Shown: piece after piece, positions 1-4,021 of the stretch
Layout of the letters: every line of letters starts with the position of its first letter
Numbering within the stretch: position 1 is the stretch's first letter
Source: a virus
Strand: one strand, 5' to 3'
Length of the DNA stretch: 21,382 bases
IMG/VR virus record: IMGVR_UViG_3300030104_000105
Coordinates: 1-21,382 of that record
Notes under the pieces: model-generated
Databases searched by the model: none
What the model saw: the letters and a program-made list of their open reading frames with translations, nothing else
Told to the model about the DNA's origin: nothing
Made by a program: the position numbers and the translations under genes

Positions 1-261
1 ATTATTTCTATAAAAAGGAAAACTAGCATAATTATATTTGTGTGAATTAATATAATGTAGTACAGAAGTTCTATCCTTTTTAATTATATCTGCTATTATT
101 GTAGGATGTATGTCTTTAGTAATTATACCTATAACACTTGCAACCATTCTTGGCACTAAAACTTCTTGCTTCCTTGTTTTGTATGCTAATGAACCTTTCT
201 GCAACCCTACTATCTGTGTAGTAAGGTCGCAAATGGTTTCAAATTTTTCTCTATCTGTCAT
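1..261 (-). CDS. DnaA domain IV-like helix-turn-helix protein (3' part beyond window)
   Basis: An open frame begins with ATG at 261 and runs without a stop to the window edge, giving 87 residues that start MTDREKFETICDLTTQIVGL. The segment VLVPRMVASVIG near residues 35-46, followed by KKDRTSVLHYINSH near residues 62-75, resembles the C-terminal DNA-binding domain of DnaA. That domain has a basic PRxIAMYL-type helix and a signature helix of the form GxRDHSTVxHA. No AAA+ ATPase domain precedes it, so this would be a stand-alone DnaA-C-type protein that binds DNA, perhaps at an origin or operator. It follows the SSB-like gene with only one base between stop and start, so the two are probably co-translated. 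The C-terminus cannot be seen. The alternative is an unrelated HTH protein; the spacing of the PR and RTSVLH motifs favours the DnaA-like reading. Confidence 0.62.
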   Translation of the reverse strand, partial: MTDREKFETICDLTTQIVGLQKGSLAYKTRKQEVLVPRMVASVIGIITKDIHPTIIADIIKKDRTSVLHYINSHKYNYASFPFYRNN

Positions 262-262
262 A

Positions 263-676
263 TTAAAATGGTAAATCAGAATCAAACTTTTCTGCTACTT
301 TATTAATTTTAGTTTGTGTAGGAGTTAAACCCCATACCCATTCATAAAACATTTGAGCATTTTTAAGTACATCTTCAGGAGTACATTTATTATCATAATC
401 TACTGCTGCTTTCAAACTTGATTGTTTTACAATAAGTTTCTGTACATCATCTTGTTTAGGACTTGATTGTGTTTGATTCTTTTGATAATCTGTTACAATC
501 TTAATACTTCCCTTGTCATTCATAGTGTAAGATATATCTTGTCCTACACTTAATTTAGAATCATTTGACTTACGATATATTTTACCTATATCTCCATTAT
601 CTAATTCTATTTCAAATACATATAGTTCTTTAAACATCCCTGAACCTTGTACGTTTTTTACTTTACTATTTTTCAT
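263..676 (-). CDS. OB-fold / SSB-like protein with acidic DSDLPF tail
   Basis: This 137-residue protein begins MKNSKVKNVQGSGMFKELYV. Its first 65 residues alternate beta-type segments with a glycine-containing turn (ELDNGDIGKIYRK, then VGQDISYTMNDKGSIKIV), as expected of a small OB-like barrel. A polar linker with NQTQSS follows, then a mostly helical part, and the protein ends FDSDLPF. That end matches the DDDLPF/DDDIPF tip by which single-stranded DNA-binding proteins recruit replication and repair partners. The tip and the N-terminal beta domain suggest a phage single-stranded DNA-binding or replication-associated protein. It is smaller and more diverged than host SSB, so the function is inferred. 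The start is preceded by the A-rich leader AATTAAATAAAT typical of Bacteroidetes. It lies between an unknown 119-residue gene and the DnaA-C-like gene. Confidence 0.6.
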   Translation of the reverse strand: MKNSKVKNVQGSGMFKELYVFEIELDNGDIGKIYRKSNDSKLSVGQDISYTMNDKGSIKIVTDYQKNQTQSSPKQDDVQKLIVKQSSLKAAVDYDNKCTPEDVLKNAQMFYEWVWGLTPTQTKINKVAEKFDSDLPF

Positions 677-682
677 ATTTAT

Positions 683-1042
683 TTATTTAATTATTATTAA
701 TTGTTTATTGTTTTCTTTATATGCTTTTAGCATTTTGTCTGTAAGATTTAAATGATATGTACCTGTTATATTGTCTATTGTATCATCTGCACACATTTGC
801 CTTTCAGTTCCAACCATTACGACTGAGTTCCAACCTGTTACAACATCTGAAAATTGTTTATGTGTTACAGAATCAGTTGATGCTACTGCTATAGTTCCTT
901 TATAGTAATGTAATTTAGCTAATACAATAGTATTATCATAGGTTAATAATCTTTTTTGTCTTTCTTTTTCTTGTTGCTTTCTCATCTCAACTAACTCTTC
1001 ATCAGTTGGTGGGGTTGGTGTAGGTATTCTATTTATATCCAT
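683..1042 (-). CDS. hypothetical protein with proline-rich N-terminus
   Basis: I do not recognise this 119-residue protein. Residues 6-13 are proline- and threonine-rich (IPTPTPPT). A strongly charged, probably helical stretch rich in E, K, Q and R follows (about residues 14-33), and then a beta-rich C-terminal part with few charges. No signal peptide or membrane segment is visible. It is the first full-length gene after the 1043-1419 intergenic region and is followed seven bases later by the SSB-like gene, so it probably belongs to the replication-side operon. The ATG at 1042 overlaps the end of a hydrophobic open frame from upstream (stop at 1033-1035), an arrangement usual for coupled phage genes. 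Confidence 0.6.
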   Translation of the reverse strand: MDINRIPTPTPPTDEELVEMRKQQEKERQKRLLTYDNTIVLAKLHYYKGTIAVASTDSVTHKQFSDVVTGWNSVVMVGTERQMCADDTIDNITGTYHLNLTDKMLKAYKENNKQLIIIK

Positions 1043-1211
1043 AACATAATAACTTTAGTAACACATACTACAAAAGCTACTGCCAAAATGCTAGTAGCTA
1101 ATGTTTTTAAAAATGTATATGTTGAATTTGGTATTACTCTACAACTTCTTTTGCATTAAGTATATACTCGTTTCTAGTTTCTCTATTAATTACTTTATAG
1201 TTTGTTTTCAT
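1033..1211 (-). pseudogene. possible frameshifted small membrane protein (25-codon ORF plus hydrophobic frame)
   Basis: An ATG at 1211 after an A-rich leader opens a 25-codon frame (MKTNYKVINRETRNEYILNA, then KEVVE, stop at 1134-1136). The overlapping -1 frame is open from about 1155 to a stop at 1033-1035. It encodes a membrane-helix-like stretch (FLKTLATSILAVAFVVCV) but has no ATG of its own. A shift near the AAAA at 1149-1152 would join them into a protein of about 59 residues, with a soluble N-terminal segment and one membrane segment. Its stop then overlaps the ATG of the next gene, as in a normal compact phage operon. This could be a disrupted gene, an assembly error, a programmed -1 frameshift or only a 25-residue peptide. 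I favour an interrupted or shifted small membrane protein. Confidence 0.35.
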
Positions 1212-1221
1212 TTTTTTTGTT

Positions 1222-1278
1222 TTAAATAAAAAGAGAACGAAAGACTTTAAACTCTATTGGGTTTTTTTACGTTCACAA
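1222..1278. other. possible leader hairpin
   Basis: On the minus strand GTGAACG pairs with the later CGTTCTC apart from one mismatch, enclosing about 30 bases. Inside, AAACCC and GAGTTT can form a short second stem around an AATA loop. On the plus strand the inner stem reads AAACTC-TATT-GGGTTT and is followed by a run of T, so it could also act as a weak terminator of rightward, antisense transcription. It lies between the candidate promoter and the first small ORF, in the presumed 5' leader. The stems are short and AT-rich, so this is tentative. Confidence 0.25.
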
Positions 1279-1321
1279 ATATTTTTTATCTGTTTTTTCT
1301 TTTTATAAATTAATTATAGTA

Positions 1322-1329
1322 CAAATATA
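1322..1329 (-). promoter_or_regulatory. candidate Bacteroidetes-type -7 promoter element
   Basis: Read on the minus strand this is TATATTTG, an exact match to the TAnnTTTG -7 consensus of the Bacteroidetes primary sigma factor. It lies in the only long non-coding region and points towards the SSB-like and DnaA-C-like genes. No clean TTTG is seen at the expected -33 position; the TAATTAA repeats lie there instead. That would fit a promoter needing an activator or controlled by a repressor. In AT-rich DNA the match alone is weak evidence. Confidence 0.35.
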
Positions 1330-1333
1330 TAAA

Positions 1334-1364
1334 TAATTAACTAAGTAATTAACTAAGTAATTAA
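1334..1364. repeat. three TAATTAA boxes at 12-base spacing (candidate operator)
   Basis: The heptamer TAATTAA occurs at 1334-1340, 1346-1352 and 1358-1364, separated each time by CTAAG. This is a tandem repeat of a 12-base unit just over one DNA turn long, so bound proteins would line up on one face. It sits immediately upstream, in minus-strand sense, of the candidate -7 element and overlaps where the -33 region would be. That suggests an operator or activator array, or small iterons near an origin. Chance repetition in AT-rich DNA is possible, but the exact spacers argue against it. Confidence 0.45.
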
Positions 1365-1393
1365 AAAAGTTATTAACAATTAGAATGTTAATA
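1363..1393 (-). terminator. AT-rich intrinsic terminator after the metallophosphoesterase gene
   Basis: In minus-strand sense TATTAACA (1393-1386) pairs perfectly with TGTTAATA (1378-1371) around a seven-base loop, and two bases later comes a run of six T (1368-1363). It starts 27 bases past the stop of the metallophosphoesterase gene. The stem has only two G-C pairs, so it would be weak unless the virion operon relies on several such sites. Confidence 0.45.
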
Positions 1394-1419
1394 TATATAA
1401 GTTATTGATTATAAGTAGA

Positions 1420-2526
1420 TTAGAAGTAGTGTACTAATCTTGCAATTTGTCCTGATTCTTTAGAATGTATAAAACCTTCTACTGCTTTTTGTACACCACA
1501 GTAACCTTTTCTGCTATGCCAACTATCAGTTCCACTTGGAGAACGCATATATTCTACAGTAACACCTATAAAATCTTTTGCATCTCTCCACTTGTATTTT
1601 ATTTTGTGATGTAAGTGATGTAGATACCAATATCTATATTTAGTATCTGACCATTCATTAGGTCTTTCATTAGCCATAAGCATAGGAAGATTATCCATTT
1701 TAGCACCATCTCCGTGTTCAAGTCCTATTAAGTTTAACCCATACTTATAATATTTTCTATGTGCTACACTAATATCAAATGTAACATCTTTAGCTTTTCT
1801 AAACCAACTTTTAAGTGAATGTGCTAAATGAAAACCTGACTGATAATCGTGATTAGACATACAATGTACAACATCTACAGGTGCAACCTCTCTAAGTATT
1901 TCTACACATTTAACATATAAATCTAAAGCTAATTCAAAATGTTGCCACCACTTACCATTAACATCTTGCCTTGTACCTGCCGTAGTTTGATTATATACAT
2001 TATCAATGTGCAATATATCGTTTCCTATGCAAAACAACACCTTGTCTATACTAAACCCCTTTGCTTTACTTAAAAGACCTGTAACACCCTCTAAAACTCT
2101 TTTACAAGCAATCTCACTATTATACTCATCATTAGTTTCTAATGCTACTGCAAGTTTTCCTATATGAATGTCAGCAGGATTTATGACTAAAAGATGTTCT
2201 CCTTTAGTCCTTTTTATTGTTGGGTATTTTGGTGCATAATTATCTATTAAGTTTTTAATATCTTCAAGCAATTCGTTTTGCTCTACACCATATTGTTCTT
2301 TGGTAACTATAGAGAATCTTAGTTCTCCTGACATACTTTGCCAATGCTTTACACTAACTATGTCTTTTTTATTAATACCTCTTTCTTTTATATGTAAGTC
2401 AAGTGCAGTATTACCATTTATGTTATCTAAGTTTTGTCCCCTAAACTCATTGATTAATTCAACTTCTTCAGGGGACAATCTTAGTCGTTTCCCTTGTGAG
2501 GACAATTTATTTTGCTTCTTTACCAA
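1420..2526 (-). CDS. calcineurin-like metallophosphoesterase (SbcD/Mre11-type)
   Basis: This 368-residue protein carries the full set of metallophosphoesterase motifs: D119-x-H121 (ADIHIGK), G168-N169-D170 (IGNDILH), N225-H226-D227 (SNHDY), H271-G272-D273 (LEHGDGAK) and a late His cluster, H303-H307 (HHLHH). These residues bind two metal ions and cleave phosphoester bonds. In phages such proteins are usually called DNA repair exonucleases, related to SbcD/Mre11. No SbcC partner is visible here. The N-terminal 100 residues include LSPEEVELINEFRG, which may form a small helical or HTH-like domain that positions it on DNA. The gene overlaps the preceding membrane-protein gene by 20 bases and is the last gene before the 1043-1419 intergenic region. 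A nuclease role in replication, packaging clean-up or host DNA breakdown is inferred; the substrate is unknown. Confidence 0.85.
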   Translation of the reverse strand: MVKKQNKLSSQGKRLRLSPEEVELINEFRGQNLDNINGNTALDLHIKERGINKKDIVSVKHWQSMSGELRFSIVTKEQYGVEQNELLEDIKNLIDNYAPKYPTIKRTKGEHLLVINPADIHIGKLAVALETNDEYNSEIACKRVLEGVTGLLSKAKGFSIDKVLFCIGNDILHIDNVYNQTTAGTRQDVNGKWWQHFELALDLYVKCVEILREVAPVDVVHCMSNHDYQSGFHLAHSLKSWFRKAKDVTFDISVAHRKYYKYGLNLIGLEHGDGAKMDNLPMLMANERPNEWSDTKYRYWYLHHLHHKIKYKWRDAKDFIGVTVEYMRSPSGTDSWHSRKGYCGVQKAVEGFIHSKESGQIARLVHYF

Positions 2527-2695
2527 AGTCCTGTAAACCTGTAACTCCTAGTAGTGCTAATAATGCCCAAAATATTTCGCTAATGTGAACTTCATCTACA
2601 CCTAAACTTCTAGCAATAAAAGGTACTACCATAGCTGCTATTGTGTACCATACTTTCTTTGATTTTAACATAGTCATTATTAAATATTCTTTCAT
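2507..2695 (-). CDS. small membrane protein, holin candidate
   Basis: This 62-residue protein begins MKEYLIMTMLKSKKVWYTIA. It has a hydrophobic segment at about residues 16-30 (WYTIAAMVVPFIARS), a short polar turn (VDEVHI), a second hydrophobic segment at about 39-53 (EIFWALLALLGVTGL) and a charged end (DFGKEAK). Two short membrane helices with a small loop are typical of phage holins. It starts one base after the stop of the DUF5675 gene, within a lysis-like cluster, and overlaps the following metallophosphoesterase gene by 20 bases. MTMLKSKK at residue 7 offers an alternative internal start. Another small membrane protein lies at 3203-3385, so the pair could be holin and antiholin. The role rests on size, hydrophobicity and context only. 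Confidence 0.6.
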   Translation of the reverse strand: MKEYLIMTMLKSKKVWYTIAAMVVPFIARSLGVDEVHISEIFWALLALLGVTGLQDFGKEAK

Positions 2696-2696
2696 T

Positions 2697-3146
2697 TTAT
2701 TTATTTTTTATTAATAATTTAATATTCTCGCCACCTAAATTAAGTATTCTCCTCATCAAAAAGTCCATAGCATATTCTGACTTACTAACATAGTCCTGTT
2801 CATTGTTCATTCCTACTAGAATACAACCCTGTGTATGTTCAGGTCTATTACCTTTGTGAAATAGGATATAACTTCTATCAGGCACTTCCTGTACTAAAAG
2901 ATGTAAATAATCTCTTGTAGCACTCTCTCTTGGTGTACGCATCCTTACATTGTATTTACCTTCAGGAATACAACTTATATTGCGTTCATTGTTTATGTAT
3001 GGATTCTCTAAGGTATCACATACATATTCTTTATTCAGATACAATCTACCTATTATAGAATTATCTGTAAATATTTCTCTCTCAAGAACAAGATTAACCT
3101 TGCCCTCTACTTTTTTTCTTGAAACCAACTTGACCTTTGGAAGCAT
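2697..3146 (-). CDS. DUF5675-family protein, probable lysis or cell-wall protein
   Basis: This 149-residue protein has the DUF5675 pattern: LVLEREIF near residue 20, IGRLYLN, CDTLENPY, SCIPEGKYNV, then SYILFHKGNRPEHTQGCILVG at about 92-112. The closing HKGN...GCI segment resembles the His/Cys catalytic region of YkuD L,D-transpeptidases, so a peptidoglycan-modifying or lytic role is plausible but unproven. The conserved part begins near residue 18. The first codons overlap the 3' end of the small basic gene (3094-3219) in another frame across a run of seven A at 3111-3117, so the true start or a frameshift fusion remains open. It lies between two small membrane proteins, in the position expected of an endolysin. 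No classical muramidase or amidase is seen in the window. Confidence 0.7.
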   Translation of the reverse strand: MLPKVKLVSRKKVEGKVNLVLEREIFTDNSIIGRLYLNKEYVCDTLENPYINNERNISCIPEGKYNVRMRTPRESATRDYLHLLVQEVPDRSYILFHKGNRPEHTQGCILVGMNNEQDYVSKSEYAMDFLMRRILNLGGENIKLLIKNK

Positions 3147-3219
3147 TTTTAGAATGTACTCCTTTACGTTTTGTAGGAGTTTTTTTAATAATTGTATAAG
3201 ATTTAATTTTTTTTGGCAT
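3094..3219 (-). CDS. small basic protein ending RGQG
   Basis: An ATG at 3219 inside the 3' end of the upstream membrane-protein gene opens 41 codons, starting MPKKIKSYTIIKKTPTKRKG and ending KKKSRGQG. The product is very basic (many K and R, almost no acidic residues). From memory, tiny basic proteins with a KRKGVHxK segment and an RGQG end occur at this place in flavobacterial phages, which supports it as real. It overlaps the membrane-protein gene by 17 bases and the DUF5675 gene by 53 bases in different frames. It may bind nucleic acid or be a minor virion protein; the role is unknown. Confidence 0.55.
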   Translation of the reverse strand: MPKKIKSYTIIKKTPTKRKGVHSKNASKGQVGFKKKSRGQG

Positions 3220-3385
3220 TCTTCTTTTTTTGATTATACCATTTATCTACAGTATAAGCTATTGAAATTACTAGCAGTATAATCTTTAGTGCTAGTTCTA
3301 AATTAGAAAATGTTGTTACACTTAGGACTGTTCCGTTTACTGCTGCTACTTCTAGTGTGTCCTGTACTGTTTTTTGTATTGGCAT
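3203..3385 (-). CDS. small single-pass membrane protein, holin or lysis accessory candidate
   Basis: This 60-residue protein begins MPIQKTVQDTLEVAAVNGTV. It has a hydrophobic helix at about residues 29-46 (NLELALKIILLVISIAYTVD) and a lysine-rich tail (NQKKKNAKKN). That layout, a polar N-terminus with one membrane helix and a basic cytoplasmic tail, is common in small phage holin-like or membrane-anchoring proteins. It lies after the head-tail connector gene and before the small basic and DUF5675 genes, where a lysis cassette begins. A 47-codon frame from 3446 overlaps its 5' half. Function is inferred from topology and context only. Confidence 0.5.
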   Translation of the reverse strand: MPIQKTVQDTLEVAAVNGTVLSVTTFSNLELALKIILLVISIAYTVDKWYNQKKKNAKKN

Positions 3386-3446
3386 TAGTCAAATATGTTT
3401 TTAATTTAATCTTATTTACTTCTTTTACTTTATATCTTTTCTTCAT
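3303..3446 (-). CDS. possible 47-residue basic micro-protein coupled by TAATG
   Basis: The stop of the head-tail connector gene overlaps an ATG at 3446 in a TAATG junction. The frame from there encodes MKKRYKVKEVNKIKLKTYLT and on to residue 47, ending at 3303. The product is lysine-rich at the start and serine/asparagine-rich after residue 21. The second half overlaps the membrane-protein gene in another frame, so only the first 20 codons lie in otherwise unused DNA. The same TAATG coupling is used by three undoubted gene pairs in this window, which is the main support. Confidence 0.3.
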   Translation of the reverse strand: MKKRYKVKEVNKIKLKTYLTNANTKNSTGHTRSSSSKRNSPKCNNIF

Positions 3447-4021
3447 TATGTAAGATCAGGTGTTAAAAAATCTCTAAGTGTTATTCTATCTCCCTGCATT
3501 TTAGGTCTTTCTAAATTCATTCCTGCATAGTATGCGTTGCTATCAGGAGATACATCTGCACCTGAATTTGTATTGTACTCAGGAAACAAGCTAATGTTGT
3601 TTTTAATATATTCTATCATACGTTCCATATAATATTCCCCTGTATTTAATACTTCACTTCTAAGATGTTGTGCTTCTTCTGTAGTTAAAGCTACTCCATT
3701 TTCTGATGTTTTAGAGTATATGTTTCCATTCTCTATCTTAAAACGTAAAAAAGGTATTGCGTGATATAACGCAAAGTTAGGTAGCATATCTCCTATATAA
3801 GTATTTAATAATGTTTTGTAGTTAGCATTAGCAGGATCATTAATAGTACCTGCCGTTATTAGGTCTTTAATCTTTTGGTTAAGGTCTGTGCCTAGCTTGG
3901 TTTCTACATAAAGTTTCTGTGCCTGTTTTATAAAAGGTAGTAGAAACTCAGGATCAACGTTTAAACTTAAAGAAGTTGAATCAACTAATTTATCTTGTGA
4001 TATGAATAGTACGTATGCCAT
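3446..4021 (-). CDS. head-tail connector (adaptor), DUF6712-like
   Basis: This 191-residue protein begins MAYVLFISQDKLVDSTSLSL. It has a helical N-terminal part with DPEFLLPFIKQAQKLYVETKLG (about residues 23-44), then NYKTLLNTYIGDMLPNFALYHAIPFLRFKI (about 67-96), and later helices with YYMERMIEYIKNNI. An all-helical protein of about 190 residues directly after the portal gene matches the gp6/gp15-type head-tail adaptors that dock under the portal. In Bacteroidetes phages this sequence type is grouped as DUF6712 (from memory). One base separates its start from the portal stop, so the two are probably translated together. It would form a ring on the portal for attachment of the tail. Confidence 0.7.
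   Translation of the reverse strand: MAYVLFISQDKLVDSTSLSLNVDPEFLLPFIKQAQKLYVETKLGTDLNQKIKDLITAGTINDPANANYKTLLNTYIGDMLPNFALYHAIPFLRFKIENGNIYSKTSENGVALTTEEAQHLRSEVLNTGEYYMERMIEYIKNNISLFPEYNTNSGADVSPDSNAYYAGMNLERPKMQGDRITLRDFLTPDLT

Follow-up and report, generated by a model that had tools for sequence, protein, structure and literature searches.

A 12-bp-phased box array on a predicted early promoter of uncultured phages and its link to a DnaA domain IV-like protein

The window analysed here is the whole of an uncultured virus record, 21,382 bp in length. On its minus strand, structural genes are followed by an exonuclease gene (1420–2526), intergenic DNA, small early genes and a gene encoding a DnaA domain IV-like protein (hereafter referred to as DnaA-C). 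The features of this region are as follows.

1420–2526, minus strand: metallophosphatase or 'DNA repair exonuclease' gene (phrog_704, E 2.5e-68), which closes the late block
1386–1393, minus strand: TATTAACA, inverted partner of the first box and left arm of an AT-rich stem, found in the window's subgroup
1367–1379, minus strand: TTGTTAATAACTT, the first and most conserved box, as seen in exonuclease-retrieved relatives
1363–1368, minus strand: run of six T (T6), described in the earlier note; unconserved
1360–1365, minus strand: box TTTAAT, at +12 of the array, the weakest
1353–1356, minus strand: degenerate -33 element TTAG with a 23-nt spacer, overlapping the box at 1353–1348
1348–1353, minus strand: box GTTAAT, at +24 of the array
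1336–1341, minus strand: box GTTAAT, at +36 of the array
1322–1329, minus strand: -7 element TATATTTG (TAnnTTTG), exact position; TAnnTTTG follows the element in relatives
1134–1211, minus strand: first open reading frame (ORF) downstream of the promoter, 25 aa, with a 40-nt deletion relative to L233 (72 aa)
683–1042, minus strand: early gene of unassigned function, 119 aa
263–676, minus strand: early gene, 137 aa, SSB-like solely through its DSDLPF tail (an impression)
1–285, minus strand: DnaA-C gene, truncated by the record end, with a PF08299 match; candidate binder of the array

Further along, the operon of relatives encodes an HTH_36 replication initiator, NinG, NinB and a sigma-like protein, with the terminase gene after these; the HTH_36 protein gives PHROG matches to replication initiation proteins, and the main genes are co-directional in the stretches inspected. 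The gene order in the window and its relatives thus places the intergenic element after the late block and ahead of the early operon. The proposal of the earlier note that a control region lies at this boundary is supported by this order and by the conservation described below. The element is kept when the upstream gene is replaced by another metallophosphatase. The 137-aa early protein (263–676) has no convincing family match, and a search for RNA families over positions 1–3500 of the window found none.

The slot just upstream of the element is occupied by two unlike metallophosphatase genes in related phages (L115:247–966 versus 1420–2526 of the window). A leader of about 100 nt (about 1215–1315, minus strand) lies between the -7 element and the first ORF, and its marker sequence occurs, among the loci examined, in the window and contig 3300030372_000485 only. 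The 40-nt deletion that leaves the first early ORF with 25 rather than 72 aa may be either genuine or an assembly fault.

The intergenic array is regular. Three TAATTAA boxes 12 bases apart and a -7 element had been read from the sequence before, and both are there: the boxes start at exactly 1334, 1346 and 1358 on the plus strand, in 12-nt steps, and TATATTTG occupies 1329–1322 on the minus strand (CAAATATA at 1322–1329 on the plus strand). That description was incomplete, because a fourth unit and an inverted fifth unit exist besides, the conserved core of the repeat is GTTAA on the minus strand rather than TAATTAA, and the most conserved piece, TTGTTAATAACTT (1379–1367), went unnamed. In minus-strand order, the units are GTTAATAAC (from 1377), TTTAAT (1365), GTTAAT (1353) and GTTAAT (1341), followed by TATATTTG (1329). 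Tandem Repeats Finder (TRF) reports 4.0 copies of period 12 at 1330–1377 with a score of 68. None of 500 shuffles equalled the best lag-12 self-match (31 of 36) at lags from 7 to 24, and a 7-mer repeated three times at a single even spacing of 7–30 arose in only 5 of 2,000 dinucleotide shuffles of the 377-nt intergenic region (about 380 bp), making a chance origin of the array unlikely. The AT content is 0.895 over 1296–1400, compared with 0.694 for the whole window.

The DnaA-C protein of the window matches PF08299 (Bac_DnaA_C) with an E value of 5.7e-5 and 23.5 bits, below the cut-off of 31.5, and this cut-off is exceeded in 0 of 21 contigs. A phmmer search for a solved relative returned nothing useful, and a search with a DnaA-C profile reached DnaA at E 0.95 only. 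Because sequence searches gave little, the domain IV fold is assigned from structure comparison: in the predicted model of the full-length homologue from a sister contig (L020, 5627–6139; mean pLDDT 92.7), residues 5–97 match DnaA domain IV (3pvp, Z 16.0; 1j1v, Z 15.3; rmsd 1.9). The 171-aa protein consists of this domain and a short α/β part (residues about 105–171) with weak structural matches (Z 4–5), and the AAA+ domain III is absent from it, as judged from the model and the structure match. In DnaA, R399 reads TTA in the minor groove, and the helix-turn-helix, with its helix around 432–439, reads TnCACA (PMC5742627, PMC7561715, PMC5043019). We assigned the equivalent positions through a by-eye alignment based on the DRTS/DHTT motif and the profile match. 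The proteins fall into two types. Those of type A carry Arg38, the equivalent of R399, in 32 of 32 rows, and Arg64 in place of His434 in 31 of 31 rows (three rows being references in either count). Those of type B have NLHHAS at the recognition-helix position and score above the Pfam cut-off.

Relatives were gathered through the exonuclease, two early proteins, a DnaA-C profile and a DNA pattern. Conservation of the boxes in related phages, a check that the earlier note had proposed, is evident from the recurrence of the 12-bp array in these relatives. In 25 of the 26 nearest exonuclease relatives, GTTAATAAC follows the stop codon, and the 26th (L006) ends within the box. All 13 columns of TTGTTAATAACTT are invariant in 21 exonuclease-retrieved loci; the 21 elements were located by the 13-mer itself, though the loci were retrieved by the exonuclease, and all 21 had the 13-mer. 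At the fourfold sites of the exonuclease gene in the same loci, 14 of 76 are invariant and the mean identity is 0.684 (the L023 exonuclease, whose aligned frame holds a stop, was left out). Identity scores in the exonuclease-retrieved loci are 0.66–0.73 for the 12-bp boxes and 0.38–0.55 for the DNA between them, and TTAACA of the inverted partner (1386–1393) has a mean pairwise identity of 0.952. A set of 34 representatives was anchored on TTGTTAATAAC, so the invariance of the TTGTTAATAAC columns in that set is by construction. Per contig, TTGTTAATAAC occurs once in 18 of 20, twice in one and not at all in one.

The 12-bp phase is kept in distant relatives (for example, L281, L289 and L297) that retain little other sequence. 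Among 26 distinct candidate promoters upstream of DnaA-C genes, pairs of GTTA occur 19 times at lag 12, 16 times at lag 24 and 13 times at lag 36; no other lag between 4 and 40 has more than 3 pairs. We scored 69 of 80 DnaA-C-retrieved loci (11 with less than 900 nt upstream were left out), plus 13 type-B loci. A 12-bp triple matching at least 13 of 15 letters is present in 58 of the 69, compared with 0–5 for the other spacings between 8 and 16, and in 0 of the 13 type-B loci. A search of the viral collection by DNA alone, for three GTTAA at 12 bp followed by a -7 element, found 71 contigs, 11 of the matches lying within coding frames; control searches found 0 contigs at 11 bp and 1 at 13 bp.

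The promoter type and the nearest isolates suggest hosts of the marine Flavobacteriia type. By portal protein, the nearest isolate is Nonlabens phage P12024S, in which the corresponding intergenic stretch has TATATTTG and lacks TTGTTAATAAC; queries with type-A DnaA-C found no isolate among isolated phages, and a host or prophage search found no exonuclease relatives in genome contigs. The DNA-pattern search of genome contigs gave 12 matches (ORFs were listed for L166, L167 and L174 only), and the phage promoter is present in L172 only. That promoter (L172:1125–1167) lies in a contig labelled as a Pseudooceanicola sp. metagenome-assembled genome, which is probably a phage contig misbinned with a bacterium. 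Five Marinimicrobia genomes (L166, L169, L170, L171 and L176) share a conserved TTGTTAATAACTTTTTAAATA stretch, which in L166 is directly ahead of a smpB-like gene by ORF reading; no tie between it and the phage element was established.

Bacteroidota sigma-A promoters, a type already known, have a -33 element (TTG or TTTG) about 17–23 nt from the -7 element. A clean -33 is missing in the window, as had been remarked before: the tetramer there is TTAG, 23 nt from the -7 element, and sister L003 has TTTG at the same place, also at 23 nt. The gap between the last box and the -7 element is 14 nt in 59 of the 71 DNA-retrieved matches (4–26 nt were allowed). Of 55 relatives with this gap, 30 have TTTG as the -33 tetramer and 41 fit xTTG, the spacer being 19 nt, and the G of the last box is the end of the tetramer. 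The fixed gap and this shared G indicate that the array is an integral part of the promoter. The window's branch has the array in a shifted position: its last box lies 12 nt from the -7 element, with TTAG at 23 nt. Across the 58 triple-bearing loci, this distance is 12 nt in 25, 20 nt in 18, 9 nt in 9, 24 nt in 4 and 32 nt in 2. The -7 box of Flavobacterium psychrophilum sits at -12 to -5 (PMC9723704), and the transcription start of the early operon is predicted near 1317. Type-B loci (for example, L046:5032–5232) have an early promoter without the array, which by eye looks canonical (TTTG, 19 nt, TANNTTTG).

The boxes resemble the DnaA box with one consistent departure. On the plus strand, the first box is TTATTAACA (1370–1378), with one mismatch to TTWTNCACA; even this best box has A at position 6, leaving the DnaA-box 9-mer unmatched. 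In the wider family, the box is TTTTTAACA, in which TTA/TTT is kept and position 6 changes from C to A. At the positions of box 1 that the search left free, T, T, W and A, as in the DnaA box, occur in 16, 16, 19 and 15 of 19 clusters, respectively; boxes 2 and 3 of the gap-14 arrays deviate from the DnaA box at the free positions, and box 3 is often GAATTAACA. Chance alone yields many DnaA boxes with one mismatch (97 in the window versus 81 expected), so this resemblance is modest evidence, and it is the association with DnaA-C and the 12-bp phase that carry the argument. A 9-mer plus 3 bp gives the 12-bp phase, and the boxes share one orientation, within the 2–4-bp separation described for low-affinity DnaA boxes of Escherichia coli (PMC5742627).

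Host DnaA was considered as the binder and rejected. A search of 41 genomes from one bacterial family (that of Winogradskyella record L167) covered 30 dnaA loci, within 3.2 kb of which there was no TTATCCACA- or TTATTAACA-type box cluster; this exclusion is partial, as the host origin was not located. In the Winogradskyella genome L167, TTGTTAATAAC is not enriched (16 sites versus 31 for the reversed control).

The array is linked to one type of DnaA-C. All 29 of the non-coding gap-14 arrays for which 3.1 kb or more of downstream sequence is available are followed by a DnaA-C gene, and TTGTTAATAACTT lies upstream of 45 of 46 distinct type-A proteins (three more are cut), compared with 0 of 24 type-B proteins. 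The element tracks the DnaA-C type, and neither the upstream gene nor the type of initiator N terminus. L084 encodes a type-A protein without TTGTTAATAACTT and retains two AGTTAAAAA units 12 bp apart; L290 and L291 encode a type-A protein and lack the array in their upstream sequence of about 2.9 kb or more. DnaA-C is absent from the contigs of both non-coding gap-13 arrays that have 3.1 kb or more downstream (L331 and L364). The L331 array lies on the opposite strand, before a small gene pair that is next to the terminase of a same-family phage, and because its neighbours resemble the structural and early genes of the window's family, its DnaA-C gene may lie past the contig end.

Gap-13 arrays constitute a second array-promoter type (L331:2487–2537; also L364, L329 and L339). 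Two large contigs, L305 (105 kb) and L320 (129 kb), have a gap-14 12-bp triple before a -7 element and lack a DnaA-C gene; the L320 match falls in an open frame.

The earlier note had put forward the DnaA-C-like protein as a candidate binder, and by co-occurrence and shared phase it appears to be the best one. The HTH_36 initiator is as universal, being encoded downstream in 29 of 29 array loci, and several other early genes are present in type-A loci and were not found in type-B loci, most loci ending about 4 kb past the exonuclease. All of these phages are related, so that the counts do not separate common descent from function, and joint inheritance may account for the association.

We consider it probable that the array is an operator on the early promoter, bound head to tail by the phage's own DnaA-C, which would cover the -33 element and repress its own operon. 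This reading builds on the array, its 12-bp phase and conservation, its fixed distance from the -7 element, its link to DnaA-C and the predicted fold of that protein. Host RNA polymerase would start the early operon at about 1317, through the TAnnTTTG -7 element and a -33 element inside a box. The boxes (GTTAA on the minus strand; TTWTTAAC[A] on the other) run head to tail every 12 bp from about -60 to the spacer, a span that suggests an operator array over the -33. The orphan DnaA DNA-binding domain, itself a product of the operon that the promoter drives, would load monomer by monomer in one orientation, occupying the strongest, first box first and then filling the weaker 12-bp units toward the -33 and the spacer. 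Coverage of the -33 would block polymerase, and early transcription would be shut down once enough product had been made. On a broader view, a DnaA DNA-binding domain may have turned into a phage transcription factor, with loss of the ATPase, a helix-5 change from His434 to Arg and a shift from TTWTNCACA to TTWTTAACA; at least three 12-bp boxes over the -33 would then form a family-wide early switch, with at least one further promoter (that of the opposite-strand accessory gene pair) in the regulon. We regard this broader view as about evenly balanced between right and wrong.

The same promoter and array could instead serve activation, with DnaA-C or another early factor substituting for a poor -33. 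In the window, the -33 is off consensus (TTAG at 23 nt), so weaker or activated transcription is possible there, and the strongest box lies about 55–62 nt upstream of the predicted start. However, in the gap-14 relatives, an xTTG element with a 19-nt spacer (41 of 55) is overlapped by a box, and the candidate activator gene sits in the operon that would need activation. Most relatives have a near-consensus -33 overlapped by the boxes; for this reason we prefer autorepression and judge activation unlikely. Of the two possibilities initially raised for this promoter, an operator or activator dependence, an operator for a repressor thus seems the likelier.

Another candidate ligand is the HTH_36-type replication initiator, for which the array might be an operator or part of an origin. 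Its presence in all 29 array loci and its PHROG matches to replication initiation proteins are consistent with such a role, but all 13 type-B loci encode the initiator too, and 0 of these 13 have the array. Moreover, type-A phages have initiators with two different N termini (27 and 15 distinct) and the element occurs with both, and the initiator gene contains iteron-like repeats of its own. We thus find initiator binding improbable.

A replication origin, with the small iterons that the earlier note had also entertained and an AT-rich region for unwinding, proved poorly supported and seems to us quite improbable. The high AT content of 1296–1400, the DnaA-like boxes and the usual single copy of TTGTTAATAAC per contig (18 of 20) would suit an origin. 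Against it stand the fixed -7 gap, the recurrence of the same array ahead of the opposite-strand gene pair in the same-family phage L331, and a better, λ O-like candidate inside the initiator gene, where the codons for YNNTSINTTSNNIS are kept at the DNA level: in 20 distinct initiator genes, codon identity given the same residue is 1.0 for YNNTSINTTSNNIS, compared with 0.83 gene-wide.

In the HTH_36 initiator gene of L115 (2766–2795) and in 19 further distinct genes, two 15-bp repeats (TAATAATACAAGTAT and TAATACTACAAGTAA) lie within the linker codons. We consider these repeats a candidate λ O-like origin on the basis of their codon identity.

The AT-rich stem is present on the minus strand (TATTAACA at 1393–1386 and TGTTAATA at 1378–1371, followed by T6 at 1368–1363), all A–T save for one G–C pair. 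That it forms, with the T run, an intrinsic terminator of the late operon, the remainder being plain AT-rich promoter DNA, is the least probable reading. The hairpin (-5.3 kcal/mol, z about -3.5) forms at least 6 of its 8 pairs in 33 of 34 representatives, but the stem is not G+C-rich and a terminator scan found none. Among the 34 representatives, the T run has 6 nt in 9 and just 2 nt in 19, and L024 and L085 have a disrupted core stem with the right arm retained. The right arm is invariant beyond the paired part, more than pairing would require, and the wider array family shows no left arm.

To our knowledge, gene control in marine Bacteroidota phages is almost unmapped, and we found no description in the open-licence literature of a phage DnaA domain IV protein paired with an altered box and a promoter array of 12-bp period. 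Prediction of early promoters and of their probable regulator from a DNA motif, in dozens of uncultured phages, provides a directly testable switch, and natural variants of DnaA domain IV with matching DNA would show how recognition of the DnaA box can be rewired.

The 'Putative DnaA protein' of Cellulophaga phage phi46:1 (NC_021800), retrieved with a type-B query, is likewise a phage protein annotated from the DnaA C-terminal domain, but its genome context differs. As in Bacteroidota sigma-A promoters, TATATTTG of the window matches the -7 consensus TAnnTTTG, and TTTG or xTTG lies 19 nt upstream in most array relatives; unlike in those promoters, the -33 here belongs to a 12-bp box array, and that of the window is degenerate, with a 23-nt spacer. 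Promoters with DnaA boxes are known, and the dnaA promoter is autoregulated by DnaA. The proposed arrangement is similar in that a DnaA-type protein would act on the promoter of its own operon, whereas the phage protein lacks the ATPase, the boxes are phased and number at least three, and the operon is an early phage operon. The DnaA-box arrays of E. coli oriC (PMC5742627) differ from the phage array in having C rather than A at position 6 of the box, a binder with an AAA+ domain and a location other than a promoter. Both consist of asymmetric 9-mers in one orientation, here 3 bp apart, and both combine one strong box with several weak ones, the candidate binder of the phage array having the predicted domain IV fold.
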